Source: a virus. From it: a stretch of 33,726 nt of DNA. A program made the translations under genes and the position numbers. The stretch is from positions 1 to 33,726 of IMG/VR virus record IMGVR_UViG_3300009158_000014. The stretch is one strand, 5' to 3'. Shown piece by piece: positions 22,071 through 33,272 of this stretch (position 1 is the stretch's first letter; the number at the start of each line of letters is the position of its first letter). Below the pieces are notes generated by a model. The model was not told where the DNA came from, made no database searches, and worked only from the letters and a program-made list of their open reading frames with translations.

Positions 22071-23285
22071 TTACACTTCCTCAAGGGTCGCGGTTTGCCC
22101 AGTCAGGGTTTCCCATCGCTTGACGATGACATCGCAATACTTGGGGTCAATTTCGATACCGTAGCAAATGCGCCCAAGCTGCTCACTTGCAAGGAATGTA
22201 GAGCCTGCGCCACCAAACGGTTCATACACAAGGCCGTCACGAGGGCAGGAATTTGAGATGGCACGCGCTGGTAGGGCAATGGGTTTCTGTGTTGGGTGTT
22301 CGTATGTCGATGAAGAATCCCGGGAAATGCGCCAAATATCAGAGGCTGCGTCTTCTGTCCGAGCGCCGTACCACTTGTTTAAGCCGCCCCCGCCAGTCTT
22401 AAACCCGTGAAAGATGATCTCGTATTGATTGTGGTAGCCGTTTGGCTTCATGGTAAAGCCGTTCTTCATCCAAATAAGATGCCGGGGCAATGAGTGGCAG
22501 AACTTCTCAAACAGCTTCTGATACAGATACAGATTGCCCTCGCCACCGCAGAAATACAACCGGGCATCGTCTTTGGTTGCCAAGGTCACGGCAAGGTCAA
22601 ACGAAAACGGAATCGCCGTCTGGGTCAAATCTCCAGCAATCATTTGCGTGGAGCCTTTGCGCTTGCCCTGAACATTGACTCCATACGGCGGATCTGTAAA
22701 CACCATGTCGGCCTGTTTCTTATTCATCAGCCGCTCTACGTCTTTGGTCTTAGTGCTGTCGCCACAGAGGAGGCGGTGCTTGCCAAGTAGCCACAGGTCG
22801 CCGGGTTGCGTGATGGGGTTGGCAGGCGGTTCTGGTATTTCTTCCTCGATTACTTCGGGCGAGTTTGCGTCGGCAAGTTTGGCAAGCTGCTTTTCGTCAA
22901 AGCCTGTCGCGGCAAGGAGTTCCTCGTCATCAATGGCAATAGCGGCGAGCTGCTGATGCAGGGCAGACTCATCCCATTCCGCCAGCTCGGCGGTGCGGTT
23001 GTCCGCAATAGCAAAGGCGGTCGCCTCGCTGCCGACAAGGTTGGTACGGATTGCCTTGATGGTCGTCCAGTTCAGCGCCCGCGCCGCCATAAGCGTTCCG
23101 TTACCAGCAACGACCACCCCGTCCTGATTGACCACAATCGGCTTCTGTTGCCCAAATCGGACAAGGGATGCCTTGATGGCCGCAAGGTTCTGATCACCGT
23201 GCTTGCGGACGTTTGCGGGGTCGTTGTGCAGGTCGGCGCAAGGAATGTCTTCGATGCCCGCGCTGGCTAGTTTTGACTTGCTCAT
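22071..23285 (-). CDS. ParB-domain DNA methyltransferase (adenine-N6 or cytosine-N4)
   Basis: 404 aa. The ATG at 23285 overlaps the HTH gene stop (ATGA). Residues 10-105 form a ParB-like nuclease domain (NDPANVRKHGDQNLAAIKAS, VVVAGNGTLMAARALNW). Residues about 165-395 are a class beta methyltransferase: FTDPPYGVN catalytic motif first, then the SAM-binding motif VYEPFGGAGSTFLASEQLGR. Usual length and domain order for phage orphan methyltransferases. It probably modifies phage DNA against host restriction or marks sites for packaging or regulation. No cognate restriction enzyme lies nearby. Confidence 0.9.
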   Translation of the reverse strand: MSKSKLASAGIEDIPCADLHNDPANVRKHGDQNLAAIKASLVRFGQQKPIVVNQDGVVVAGNGTLMAARALNWTTIKAIRTNLVGSEATAFAIADNRTAELAEWDESALHQQLAAIAIDDEELLAATGFDEKQLAKLADANSPEVIEEEIPEPPANPITQPGDLWLLGKHRLLCGDSTKTKDVERLMNKKQADMVFTDPPYGVNVQGKRKGSTQMIAGDLTQTAIPFSFDLAVTLATKDDARLYFCGGEGNLYLYQKLFEKFCHSLPRHLIWMKNGFTMKPNGYHNQYEIIFHGFKTGGGGLNKWYGARTEDAASDIWRISRDSSSTYEHPTQKPIALPARAISNSCPRDGLVYEPFGGAGSTFLASEQLGRICYGIEIDPKYCDVIVKRWETLTGQTATLEEV

Positions 23286-24426: not shown

Positions 24427-24969
24427 TTAGAACGGTGTCCAGTTCGGATCGGCTTCTTGAGCAGCCTTAATCTCCGCCCGCCGAAGGCGACGACCCCCCT
24501 TCCCAAGGGGGGTTACGGGGGGATTGGTATTTGTAGTTGTGGTTGTGGTTGTAGTTGCCATCGGTTTGCCATTGGCTGAGCCAATGGCTGAGCCATTACC
24601 TGAGCCATTGGCGGAGCCATTCTTGCCACTCCAACGGGCATCTGCTCCACGCCTTCCGGATTCGCTTCGTTCGTTGTGGCGTTGCTCGACCTTGACGCGC
24701 TCGCGTTCCATGCGCGGGTTCACAAGGCTAGCCATTGGCTTAGCCAATGGCTCAGCCATAGGCTCAAAGCGTCCCCGGATGATTGCCCAGTCGCGCTCAG
24801 AGAGCGGGCAGCGGGTCAGGATTGAACAGGCTTCGCGGTCGTCTGGGATGCCCCCGTTCGTCCACGCGTACATGAGGAGCTGCGTGTACGACCAGCCTTG
24901 GATGGGGGTCATCGTTGCGGTGCTGACCAAGAAGTCAGTCGGGTAAAGCGGGAACCACGGTGTAGACAT
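24427..24969 (-). CDS. Replication initiator-like protein (DUF1376/YdaU) carrying iterons
   Basis: 180 aa, ATG at 24969 with AAGGA upstream; first gene of the leftward unit. MSTPWFPLYPTDFLVSTATM, GWSYTQLLMYAWTNGGIPDD and LSERDWAIIRGRFEP are the DUF1376 signature in order, followed by the usual ESGRRGADARWSGK segment. The linkers are low complexity (EPMAEPLAKPMAS; NGSANGSGNGSAIGSANG; an eight-residue Thr run) because the DNA there consists of 12-bp repeats. A C-terminal tail (RRAEIKAAQEADPNWTPF) ends the protein. DUF1376 proteins occur in phage replication modules next to helicase loaders. Repeats inside an initiator gene recall the lambda O gene origin. Confidence 0.82.
   Translation of the reverse strand: MSTPWFPLYPTDFLVSTATMTPIQGWSYTQLLMYAWTNGGIPDDREACSILTRCPLSERDWAIIRGRFEPMAEPLAKPMASLVNPRMERERVKVEQRHNERSESGRRGADARWSGKNGSANGSGNGSAIGSANGKPMATTTTTTTTNTNPPVTPLGKGGRRLRRAEIKAAQEADPNWTPF
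24557..24627. repeat. 12-bp iteron array 1 (candidate replication origin)
   Basis: Six degenerate units of GCCATTGGCTGA start at 24557, 24568, 24580, 24592, 24604 and 24616 (first unit 11 bp). The alternating units ATTGG and CAATGG make GCCATTGGC / GCCAATGGC palindromes. They encode the Ser-Ala-Asn-Gly repeats on the minus strand. The neighbouring 24530-24555 stretch is a pure GT/T-rich run. Confidence 0.8.
24731..24766. repeat. 12-bp iteron array 2
   Basis: Three units: GCCATTGGCTTA (24731), GCCAATGGCTCA (24743), GCCATAGGCTCA (24755). The first two form an 11-bp inverted repeat AGCCATTGGCT-T-AGCCAATGGCT. Same family as the array at 24557-24627. Confidence 0.8.
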
Positions 24970-25247: not shown

Positions 25248-25356
25248 ACACCGAGCGGCATCATAATCGGGCGCGGTGTCAATTTATTTGATGCGGATTT
25301 CAGGCTATGAATCTGCAATTATGCATAAATCTGTCAACAAACTCATGTACTAGCCC

Positions 25357-25385
25357 TTGCGTACCGATATACCGTGTAGTACATT
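25357..25385 (+). promoter_or_regulatory. Weak candidate early rightward promoter
   Basis: TTGCGT (25357-25362), 17 bases, TACATT (25380-25385). Only about half-matched to the sigma-70 consensus, but correctly spaced and about 55 bases before the first early gene. Confidence 0.3.
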
Positions 25386-25391
25386 GTGTGA

Positions 25392-25442
25392 GTCAAAGGC
25401 GCGTGCCTCTGACAAACGCAAACAGTTTGAGAGGACTGAACC
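25392..25442 (+). promoter_or_regulatory. Leader hairpin and conserved ribosome binding box, first early gene
   Basis: GTCA-a-AGGC-GCGT-GCCT-c-TGAC forms a hairpin (25392-25413), followed by AGTTTGAGAGGACTGAA just before the ATG at 25443. The same box precedes the genes at 25784 and 26187, and a variant precedes 28815. Confidence 0.65.
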
Positions 25443-25697
25443 ATGCCTAGCCAAGCCCGCCGCCACAACCGCAACGTCCGCAACCAGTCCGTTCACCTGT
25501 CTAACAAGGCGAACCGCCTTGCCCGTAAGGTCGAAGCTCGTTTCGACCCGTCCATGCTTTTGCCGGGCAGCGTGATTGAGACCGAGCGCCAAATCCTTGC
25601 CGGAATGCACGGGGATTGGTGCAAGATGGTGCTGACCGCCGCGCAAGCAGTCAGCGCCAAAGGCGAGGCCGCATGGTCTCGGATTGTAAACACCTGA
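25443..25697 (+). CDS. Small early protein, 84 aa, unknown
   Basis: ATG at 25443 after the conserved GAGAGGACTGAA box. A basic N-terminus (SQARRHNRNVRNQSVHLSNK, then ANRLARKVEARFD) precedes a helical half (ETERQILAGMHGDWCKMVLT). It is the first gene of the rightward early unit, where phages often keep host-takeover proteins. The basic start would allow nucleic acid binding. No family recognised. Confidence 0.72.
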   Translation: MPSQARRHNRNVRNQSVHLSNKANRLARKVEARFDPSMLLPGSVIETERQILAGMHGDWCKMVLTAAQAVSAKGEAAWSRIVNT

Positions 25698-25783
25698 TAT
25701 CGACCGCGCACCGACCCCCGCGAGGGGGAAGGATGCGACGGCCGATACCGACGCAACGCACCTAGTTTGAGAGGACTGAAGCC
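25695..25783 (+). promoter_or_regulatory. Structured intergenic RNA element A with CsrA-type GGA sites
   Basis: Starts at the stop codon of the upstream gene. Outer imperfect stem 25698-25712 with 25731-25747 (about 14 pairs); inner hairpin CCCCC-GCGA-GGGGG (25715-25728). AAGGATG (25729-25735) matches the core of the CsrA consensus, and AGAGGACTG lies at the ribosome binding site. Element B has the same outer arms and a different, still paired, inner hairpin. Confidence 0.72.
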
Positions 25784-26098
25784 ATGAGCGACGCAATCAC
25801 CATTTCGATCCCAGAACACAACTACCTCGCCGTTCAGCACGTCACGCGCATGGAGCCTTATGCGGTTGCGCTCGGCCACATGGGCTACGACGCGATTCTC
25901 CCGGCGGCTCAAAAAATCAAGGACGGCGTAAGCCTCGCCGTGATCCGCGCACACGCTGACATCGAGGTCGTTGACCGCGACAACGAAAGCGCCTTCAACG
26001 CGTGCCTCGATGCAATTCAAGCAGCTGAAGATGCCTTCGAAGCCCGCCACACAATCACGGTGGGCATCATCCGCTCAACCGTGCGGCAGCTGTCTTGA
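25784..26098 (+). CDS. Small early protein, 104 aa, unknown
   Basis: ATG at 25784 after the conserved box. Compact alpha/beta sequence: SDAITISIPEHNYLAVQHVT, a helical centre (LPAAQKIKDGVSLAVIRAHA), acidic DIEVVDRDNESAFNACLDAI, and VGIIRSTVRQ at the end. Slightly acidic and without membrane segments. It is flanked on both sides by near-identical RNA elements, so its expression is probably controlled with its neighbours. Function unknown. Confidence 0.72.
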   Translation: MSDAITISIPEHNYLAVQHVTRMEPYAVALGHMGYDAILPAAQKIKDGVSLAVIRAHADIEVVDRDNESAFNACLDAIQAAEDAFEARHTITVGIIRSTVRQLS

Positions 26099-26186
26099 TA
26101 TCGACCGCGCACCTGTCCACCCTCTGGGGTGGGCGGGATGCGACGGCCGATACCGACGCACACACCCAGTTTGAGAGGACTGAACC
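26096..26186 (+). promoter_or_regulatory. Structured intergenic RNA element B (paralogue of element A)
   Basis: Outer arms 26099-26113 and 26136-26152 are identical to element A; the inner hairpin is CCACCC-TCTG-GGGTGG (26117-26132), different in sequence but fully paired. GGGATG follows and AGTTTGAGAGGACTGAA (26169-26185) precedes a TTG start. Confidence 0.72.
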
Positions 26187-26519
26187 TTGACCGCCCGCCA
26201 TAACGACCCAGCAACCAGCCACATGGCCGCCGAGGACATGGTCAGCAAACTTGCAGGGCTACAAGCCGCGCTCCTAGCCGCCTTCAAGGCGGCAGGGGCG
26301 TATGGGCTGACCTCGGACGAAGCCGAAGCCGCAGCGCACCTACACGCGGGGGCGCGTCGCCGTGTCAGCGAGCTGCACGCGGCAGGGCTGATTGCCCCGA
26401 CTGGCGCTACGCGACTCGGTCGCGCTGGTAAGGCGCAACGCGTGTTCGCGGCTGTTGTCTCCTCTATCCCCGATAGCCTCTTTGCCACCACCCCTACCGA
26501 AAGGAAATTCCGATGCTAG
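26187..26519 (+). CDS. Winged-helix-type DNA-binding protein
   Basis: 110 aa with a TTG start at 26187, fixed by the conserved ribosome box two bases upstream. TARHNDPATSHMAAEDM is the N-terminal signature of a widespread family of small phage DNA-binding proteins. A helix-turn-helix follows (LLAAFKAAGAYGLTSDEAEA, then ARRRVSELHAAGLIAPTGAT), the R-x-x-E-L-x-x-x-G-L-I motif marking a recognition helix and wing. Probably a transcription regulator or replication accessory protein. The weak TTG start may keep its level low. Confidence 0.78.
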   Translation: MTARHNDPATSHMAAEDMVSKLAGLQAALLAAFKAAGAYGLTSDEAEAAAHLHAGARRRVSELHAAGLIAPTGATRLGRAGKAQRVFAAVVSSIPDSLFATTPTERKFRC

Positions 26520-26857
26520 ACACCAAGAAGATCCGCAAGCGCGAAGTCGAATACGACATCAATGTTGACCAGTTGCCGGGCATCCCGGAAGTCATCGCCG
26601 AGTACCTCATGTCCCACGCCGTGACCGTCCTCCTAGAAGGTCGCTACCAAGTCGATGGCGGCAACCCGGATGCGGGCGACCAGCCAGCATGGCGCTTGCT
26701 CGATTGGAAGATCCTGACTGTGAGCCTTGACGGGCAAGTCCTTGACCATGACGAGCGCGTCCCGTCAGACTTCCCGATGGCGCTCGTCATCAACAGCACC
26801 TACTCGCGCCACACGCGGGAGTACCTAGAGGCGCGGCCGCCGGAGATGTACGAATGA
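26513..26857 (+). CDS. Early protein, 114 aa, unknown
   Basis: ATG at 26513, inside the last codons of the upstream gene, with AAAGGA upstream. Reads as a globular acidic alpha/beta protein (VEYDINVDQLPGIPEVIAEY, PAWRLLDWKILTVSLDGQVL, FPMALVINSTYSRHTREYLE). Overlaps on both sides point to translational coupling. No family recognised. Confidence 0.72.
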   Translation: MLDTKKIRKREVEYDINVDQLPGIPEVIAEYLMSHAVTVLLEGRYQVDGGNPDAGDQPAWRLLDWKILTVSLDGQVLDHDERVPSDFPMALVINSTYSRHTREYLEARPPEMYE

Positions 26858-32520: not shown

Positions 32521-33012
32521 TTATGCCTTTCGTCGTGTCTGGGCTTTTCTGAATGCGGCATCAAACATCGGATCTTGTGCGCGCATTGCTGCAATGTACT
32601 CTCGATCCCCTTCGGGTCGATTGGGGTCTAGCATATCGACCGCCAACTCCGCCGCAACTACTTTCCGGCGAGGAAGCCAACCAATTGCCACCCGGATGGC
32701 TGACCCTATCCCGGTCTGCCACAGGACAATGACGAGCGCTACGGCCACCACGGCAATAGCCCCATAGGTCAGCATGGTCATCCATGCGGGGGTCTTGTCC
32801 TCCACCCCGGACAGGCTGACGTGAATCCCGGACGCGAGCGCGTCAATACGGGTAGCCCGGGCAACGACCTCCGGATCTCCGGTTTCCGTCCCGCGCTGGA
32901 TCAACCCCTGCGCCTCGGCGCGGATGTCGTTGGACGACTGCGCGATCCTCTGCACGGGGCTACAACCCGCGAGAAGCACAAGCATGGCGACCATGAGCCA
33001 CCAACGGCTCAA
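32521..33012 (-). CDS. Lipoprotein with C-terminal transmembrane helix (u-spanin-like)
   Basis: 163 aa from a TTG start at 33012 that overlaps the upstream stop (TTGA); this start gives MSRWWLMVAMLVLLAGC, a correct lipoprotein signal with Cys17, whereas ATG 32994 lacks the positive residue. After a helical periplasmic part (QSSNDIRAEAQGLIQRGTET, ...RIDALASGIHVSLSG) comes a transmembrane segment (YGAIAVVAVALVIVLWQTGI). Lipid anchor outside plus helix inside is the layout of unimolecular spanins (T1 gp11), which join the two membranes at lysis. Common in proteobacterial phages. Length beyond the helix (~50 residues) is longer than usual. Confidence 0.7.
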   Translation of the reverse strand: MSRWWLMVAMLVLLAGCSPVQRIAQSSNDIRAEAQGLIQRGTETGDPEVVARATRIDALASGIHVSLSGVEDKTPAWMTMLTYGAIAVVAVALVIVLWQTGIGSAIRVAIGWLPRRKVVAAELAVDMLDPNRPEGDREYIAAMRAQDPMFDAAFRKAQTRRKA

Positions 33013-33272
33013 CGCTTCTCGATACGCGTAACGCGTTCTTCTAGCCCGCGCACGCGCTCCCCAATAACTTGAATCTGTGCGTTGCCAGCGGTCGCTAGTT
33101 CTTGGATCTTGCCAAGGTCGCCCGCCATCTTTTCGAGGCTCTTGGTCTGCTGCTCGTCGCGTTCCGAACGGCTCCCAGCGTAGACAAGCGCGGCCACTAA
33201 AGCCGTGACCGCCACGAAGAACTGGGCAAAGCGAAGCCATCGGTCGATAGATGAAGCGGTTTCGAGGGTCAT
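33009..33272 (-). CDS. Membrane-anchored coiled-coil protein, 87 aa (lysis cassette)
   Basis: ATG at 33272; ribosome binding site weak. One transmembrane helix (FAQFFVAVTALVAALVYAGS) near the N-terminus, then a coiled coil (QQTKSLEKMAGDLGKIQELA, VIGERVRGLEERVTRIEKR). Its stop overlaps the lipoprotein TTG. It may be a holin or antiholin, or an i-spanin-like partner; no sequence family separates these. No endolysin gene is seen nearby. Confidence 0.65.
   Translation of the reverse strand: MTLETASSIDRWLRFAQFFVAVTALVAALVYAGSRSERDEQQTKSLEKMAGDLGKIQELATAGNAQIQVIGERVRGLEERVTRIEKR

Follow-up and report, generated by a model that had tools for sequence, protein, structure and literature searches.

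A previously undescribed family of structured RNAs positioned directly after stop codons in the early operons of phages with unrelated packaging genes

In T7-like early operons, a single transcript has structured intercistronic regions that serve as RNase III sites, with cleavage inside a long irregular stem. Cluster K mycobacteriophages carry a 13-bp start-associated sequence (SAS) at the start codon and 17-bp inverted repeats (ESAS) just upstream (PMC3203893). The put RNAs of phage HK022, two per genome, lie downstream of early promoters and act over 10 kb (PMC9378689), and the integron attC site recombines by its bottom strand (PMC2727003). The element family described here is closest in kind to SAS/ESAS. 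In each case the non-structural half of a genome contains numerous copies, and imperfect inverted repeats with a variable centre adjoin a conserved translation-start motif (PMC3203893). ESAS is tied to start codons, whereas the element abuts the upstream stop, lies 34-51 nt from the start and has a different consensus. The element further differs in possessing a second hairpin, a pairing between a loop and the 5' end, and a start-motif module separate from itself; it also occurs across phages whose packaging genes are unrelated, and it remains behind operon-last genes, where the operon contains no downstream start. The likeness to T7-like RNase III sites lies in the structured early-gene gaps and in a function that could be to process or stabilise mRNAs, but the element is also strongly conserved in primary sequence beyond the stem and adds an interaction between the helices P1 and P3.

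The window analysed here is the whole of a 33,726-base uncultivated virus record (IMGVR_UViG_3300009158_000014). Its late block, comprising portal, terminase and tail genes, lies on the minus strand, while the early block runs rightward and includes Erf-like and Mu Gam-like genes. Also on the minus strand are a protein (22071-23285) that matches ParB-like and DNA methyltransferase families, apparently as a fusion, and a gene (24427-24969) that contains 12-bp tandem and inverted repeats of the GCTGAGCCAATG type at 24551-24771. A weak sigma-70-like promoter of the early operon is proposed by eye, in the window and in relatives, at 25357-25385 of the plus strand (TTGCGT-17-TACATT); its status is tentative because a strict promoter scan detected none. 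The counterpart in the relatives L010 and L011, also read by eye, is TTGACA-17-TACCAT. Just 3' of this likely promoter is a plus-strand leader hairpin, GTCA-A-AGGC-GCGT-GCCT-C-TGAC (25392-25413), which lies outside the element family. The leader region 25380-25450 folds with a z of -2.5, and a core similar to the apical AGGC-GCGT-GCCT recurs in the leaders of several other phages, including L017.

Three early genes of the plus strand follow. The first (25443-25697) encodes 84 amino acids, and its relatives in L015, L017 and L025 are followed by the same element. The second (25784-26098), of 104 amino acids, has an 88% identical counterpart that opens the operon in L013. The third (26187-26519), phrog_18663-like and of 110 amino acids, has a TTG start and an overlap with the following gene, and no element comes after it. 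Element 1 (25698-25755) directly follows the TGA stop of the first gene (25695-25697), and element 2 (26099-26160) that of the second (26096-26098), both on the plus strand. A 17-base ribosome-binding module, AGTTTGAGAGGACTGAA, is present three times on this strand: behind the first leader, which has no element (25424-25440), and behind each element (25764-25780 and 26168-26184).

At both sites identical arms, TATCGACCGCGCACC / GGATGCGACGGCCGATACCGACGCA, surround inner hairpins that differ and are nonetheless paired. This arrangement was reported in the preliminary description, and each element, taken as RNA, does fold as drawn there, with about 14 outer pairs and the inner hairpin. The folding energies are -32.2 and -39.2 kcal/mol (z of -5.8 and -5.7), and none of 200 shuffled sequences folded as well. 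The 24-mer common to both elements, together with the 17-base box, is beyond chance expectation. The same description placed the elements at stop codons and held that they are not simple terminators, and both statements extend to the family. In a table of 50 copies, 47 begin 0-4 nt past the upstream stop, two overlap the stop and one begins at 6 nt. No T-run follows the window elements, no plus-strand terminator-like site is present in 25250-26650, and a U-run is absent behind the copies in the table.

A search for further covarying copies had been suggested as a check. Pattern scans of IMG/VR with covariance-model checks found at least 49 distinct copies on at least 35 viral contigs, window included; these copies are related to each other, the carriers include near-duplicate contigs of one phage (L014/L018, L019/L027, L144/L266), and the counts are not counts of independent events. 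A single contig, L015, holds as many as seven copies plus a remnant. Its operon leader also contains, at 1859-1898 and 5' of the first gene, a diverged P2-like hairpin ending GGATGCGAC, a placement unlike that of all other copies. The 42.6-kb contig IMGVR_UViG_3300017788_000002 (L155 / L157) is probably complete, given that its ends are repeated (stretch 7-70 recurs at 42485-42548). The carrier groups have few or no proteins in common, and their terminase types differ: phrog_38 in the window, phrog_2 in G014 and G020, and phrog_5989 in G013, the terminases of the window and G013 having no similarity. Rfam 15 contains no family that matches the window at gathering threshold, and only chance-level matches appear at E up to 5-10. 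Cultured phages and plasmids yielded no element, only chance-level partial matches. In bacterial and archaeal genomes, 58 pattern matches were judged from their flanks and inner sequences to be chance, none having the element's hairpin and context. The family is thus previously undescribed: it is not in Rfam, its anatomy and spread are unusual, and its kind is loosely known.

Comparison of the copies makes it almost certain that the elements are a family of RNAs selected for structure. In a 38-copy alignment (A1), the sequence of the inner hairpin is free and its pairing is kept, and the covariation score lies above all 500 shuffles and above all slid controls. The inner hairpin types could not be aligned in one register with MAFFT, and pair counts for this hairpin, P2, therefore understate its pairing. 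The P2 columns and the pair 51/60 head an unbiased mutual-information list among well-filled columns. At 51/60 all four Watson-Crick pairs are represented (A-U in 24, U-A in 6, G-C in 5 and C-G in 3 of 45 copies). Paired changes are also seen at 15/43 (C-G 41, U-A 4), 4/56 (U-A 38, G-C 3) and 5/55 (C-G 37, U-G 7, U-A 1). Covariation had been claimed from the window elements themselves; two copies alone are insufficient as proof, and it is the relatives that supply it, for both P2 and P3.

In the resulting structure, P1 pairs the bases after the stop codon (UCG) with the loop of P3 (CGA), at 25700-25702 with 25743-25745 in element 1 and at 26101-26103 with 26148-26150 in element 2. P2 has a nearly fixed shape and free sequence and stands on an invariant base, which its invariance places beyond the reach of covariation testing. 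It comprises 25707-25712 with 25731-25737 plus the inner CCCCC-GCGA-GGGGG (25715-25728) in element 1, and 26108-26113 with 26136-26142 plus the inner hairpin 26114-26135 in element 2. P3 is defined as a second hairpin because column 51 covaries with column 60 rather than with column 9; it pairs 25739-25741 with 25748-25750 in element 1 and 26144-26146 with 26153-26155 in element 2, and a single base (A49) separates it from P2. The inner hairpin proposed earlier is thereby strongly confirmed as a selected structure, whereas the 14-pair outer stem is not: columns 9 and 51 fail to pair in 33 of 38 relatives, all that persists of the stem is its outermost UCG/CGA, as P1, and the 3' strand makes its own hairpin, P3. 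An HDV-like fold was dropped because the long first stem it would need has two mismatches. In a divergent clade (L144, L155, L174, L256, L302 and L308), the P1 pair 4/56 is G-C in several copies, although mismatches also occur there, and 5/55 is U-A in four, C-G in four and U-G in one. The P3 stem of this clade differs (GGCC/GGCC or GCC/GGC), yet UGCG/CGCA closes it in most cases.

It is most likely the transcript that is selected. Substitutions at pairs 5/55, 48/63, 45/66 and 46/65 give G.U but in no case A.C, and in the U.G-type copies P2 is about 5-10 kcal/mol more stable on the sense strand; these two observations point to the RNA rather than to a hairpin in the DNA of the opposite strand. 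This bears on the proposal that the element is a DNA site, either an attC-like cassette recombination site or a protein operator, with gene and element forming a mobile cassette. Like attC, the element is an imperfect bulged hairpin with a variable tip that stands behind a gene and between shuffled genes (PMC2727003). Gene order does vary between phages, with the joints at the elements, and the elements follow stops; for example, the 84-aa gene that is first in the window occupies second or third place in L017, L015 and L025, and behind a near-identical gene, MCKKQLQ (98% aa), L014 and L017 have inner hairpins that differ. The type of inner hairpin has no clear-cut association with the upstream or downstream gene. 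However, selection here acts on the sense strand, whereas attC recombines via its bottom strand (PMC2727003), and the size of the tip is nearly constant. Unlike an operator, the element accepts any of the four bases at the paired position 51/60. No integrase was found to accompany the element: tyrosine recombinase PF00589 was detected in none of 14 carrier or related records, with 14 of 14 controls positive, the records possibly being incomplete and a host enzyme conceivable. These points leave a DNA site with a very slim chance of being correct.

A further feature of the RNA is the invariant UGCG (25734-25737 in element 1, 26139-26142 in element 2), which can pair either with an upstream CGCA, closing P2, or with a downstream CGCA (25752-25755 and 26157-26160, respectively), closing P3. 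The second pairing (45-48/63-66, UGCG with downstream YGCR) is present in 87% of cells, changes mainly by wobble (G.U) and is far lower when slid. Since the upstream CGCA is also invariant, UGCG has two conserved possible partners. In most relatives the energies of state A (the P2 base) and state B (extended P3) differ by about 0-3 kcal/mol, whereas in the window elements state A is 6-9 kcal/mol better. Because UGCG can pair with either CGCA, the fold that contains P1 is either a static pseudoknot, in which P1 and P3 coexist with P2, or a switch.

If it is a switch, it could be coupled to translation: a ribosome at the stop would cover the 5' strand and free UGCG for P3 (state B), which would govern the next ribosome-binding site or the access of Rho or RNase. 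The mutually exclusive, conserved partners of UGCG and the similar energies of the two states in most relatives are consistent with such coupling, as are the constant distances to the stop and to the next start and the retention of UGCG/CGCA in the divergent clade despite its different P3 stem. However, the window's preference for state A speaks against it, no pairing between element and ribosome-binding site was seen, and copies at operon ends have no downstream gene in the operon. On this evidence a translation-coupled switch appears unlikely. The core is compact and may be pseudoknotted, and some invariant bases lie beyond the helices that were tested; it might instead belong to a new class of self-cleaving ribozyme that cuts the polycistronic message at each gap, and the start right after the stop codon and the punctuation of operons by the copies would suit this role. 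Rfam ribozyme families give no match to the element even at E up to 5-10, there is no known cleavage site, and we regard a ribozyme as highly improbable.

The next start codon, where assigned, is a rather constant 34-51 nt beyond the element, and the ribosome-binding module in this spacer varies by phage group, the same module standing in that group's own leader. The ribosome box with which both window elements were earlier said to end is present, but it is not part of the element, as other phage groups use a different module there. L015, L021 and L025 also have an element after the operon's last gene, just before a promoter; these copies retain P1 and P2 and have lost the 3' strand of P3. Protein identity of the adjoining gene, the 84-aa gene of the window, falls to 29-36% while the core of the element is identical, which indicates selection on the element.

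An action in antitermination or against Rho, like that of HK022 put, would have the nascent two-hairpin RNA bind RNA polymerase and carry it through the untranslated gaps of early operons. The two stem-loops of put stand ahead of the operon or at its beginning, and put antiterminates through the beta' zinc-binding domain of RNA polymerase. The parallels are a phage early transcript, a length of about 60-75 nt (about 60 nt here), two hairpins (one base, A49, apart in the element) and no apparent dedicated phage protein (PMC9378689); no shared phage protein was found to serve the element, and put needs none. Yet put acts over 10 kb (PMC9378689), which would make a copy after every gene unnecessary, and the element follows genes, operon ends included, in up to seven copies per contig. 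This contrast is one of position, and it makes a put-like function improbable. For the points raised against each, the put-like, ribozyme and DNA-site readings are all considered less likely.

The preliminary description had suggested RNA processing or translational control, and both are plausible as putative roles. Our tentative preference, drawn from sequence comparison, is for an intercistronic element that acts on the upstream cistron, on its 3' end or its insulation, through protection, a processing boundary and/or separation from the next gene. An action on the upstream message is favoured because the element keeps a fixed place relative to the upstream stop and also occurs at operon ends. 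The element would serve the cistron ahead of it, folding as the terminating ribosome departs. The compact 3' end would then mark or shield the upstream message against 3'-exonucleases and/or set a processing boundary, and would insulate it from the following gene, for which a separate ribosome-binding module is present. A host factor would probably read the sequence-invariant part, a proposal made because the comparison revealed no RNA-binding protein that every carrier phage shares; the unrelated terminases of the carriers also argue for a host factor. A shared phage RNA-binding protein was considered and rejected, the most widespread common protein being a lipoprotein-like ORF. This ORF (32521-33240 in the window, minus strand), with its lipoprotein-like LLAGC motif, is conserved in 14 of 19 compared records from otherwise unrelated carriers; it is possibly a lysis protein and a hint of hosts common to the carrier phages.

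Some observations count against this reading. The constant 34-51 nt to the next start and the loss of P3 at operon ends hint that P3 may serve the downstream gene, and the sequence invariance (23 columns in A1) is more than a plain protective hairpin needs. The loss of P3 at operon ends, together with the two states, leaves room for the translation-coupled switch. A bolder reading, which we consider distinctly unlikely, is that of a new class of RNA that either acts as a catalyst, cleaving itself, or binds cellular machinery, namely RNA polymerase or the ribosome. Such an RNA would punctuate early operons behind every stop codon and would pass between unrelated phages as a standard part.

The comparative fold specifies precise mutants (P1, P2, P3 and UGCG), making the function directly testable by reporter. 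As an RNA family without a database entry, found alongside unrelated packaging genes and in a fixed position at the stop codon, the element is a candidate for a general phage device that separates or protects neighbouring messages.
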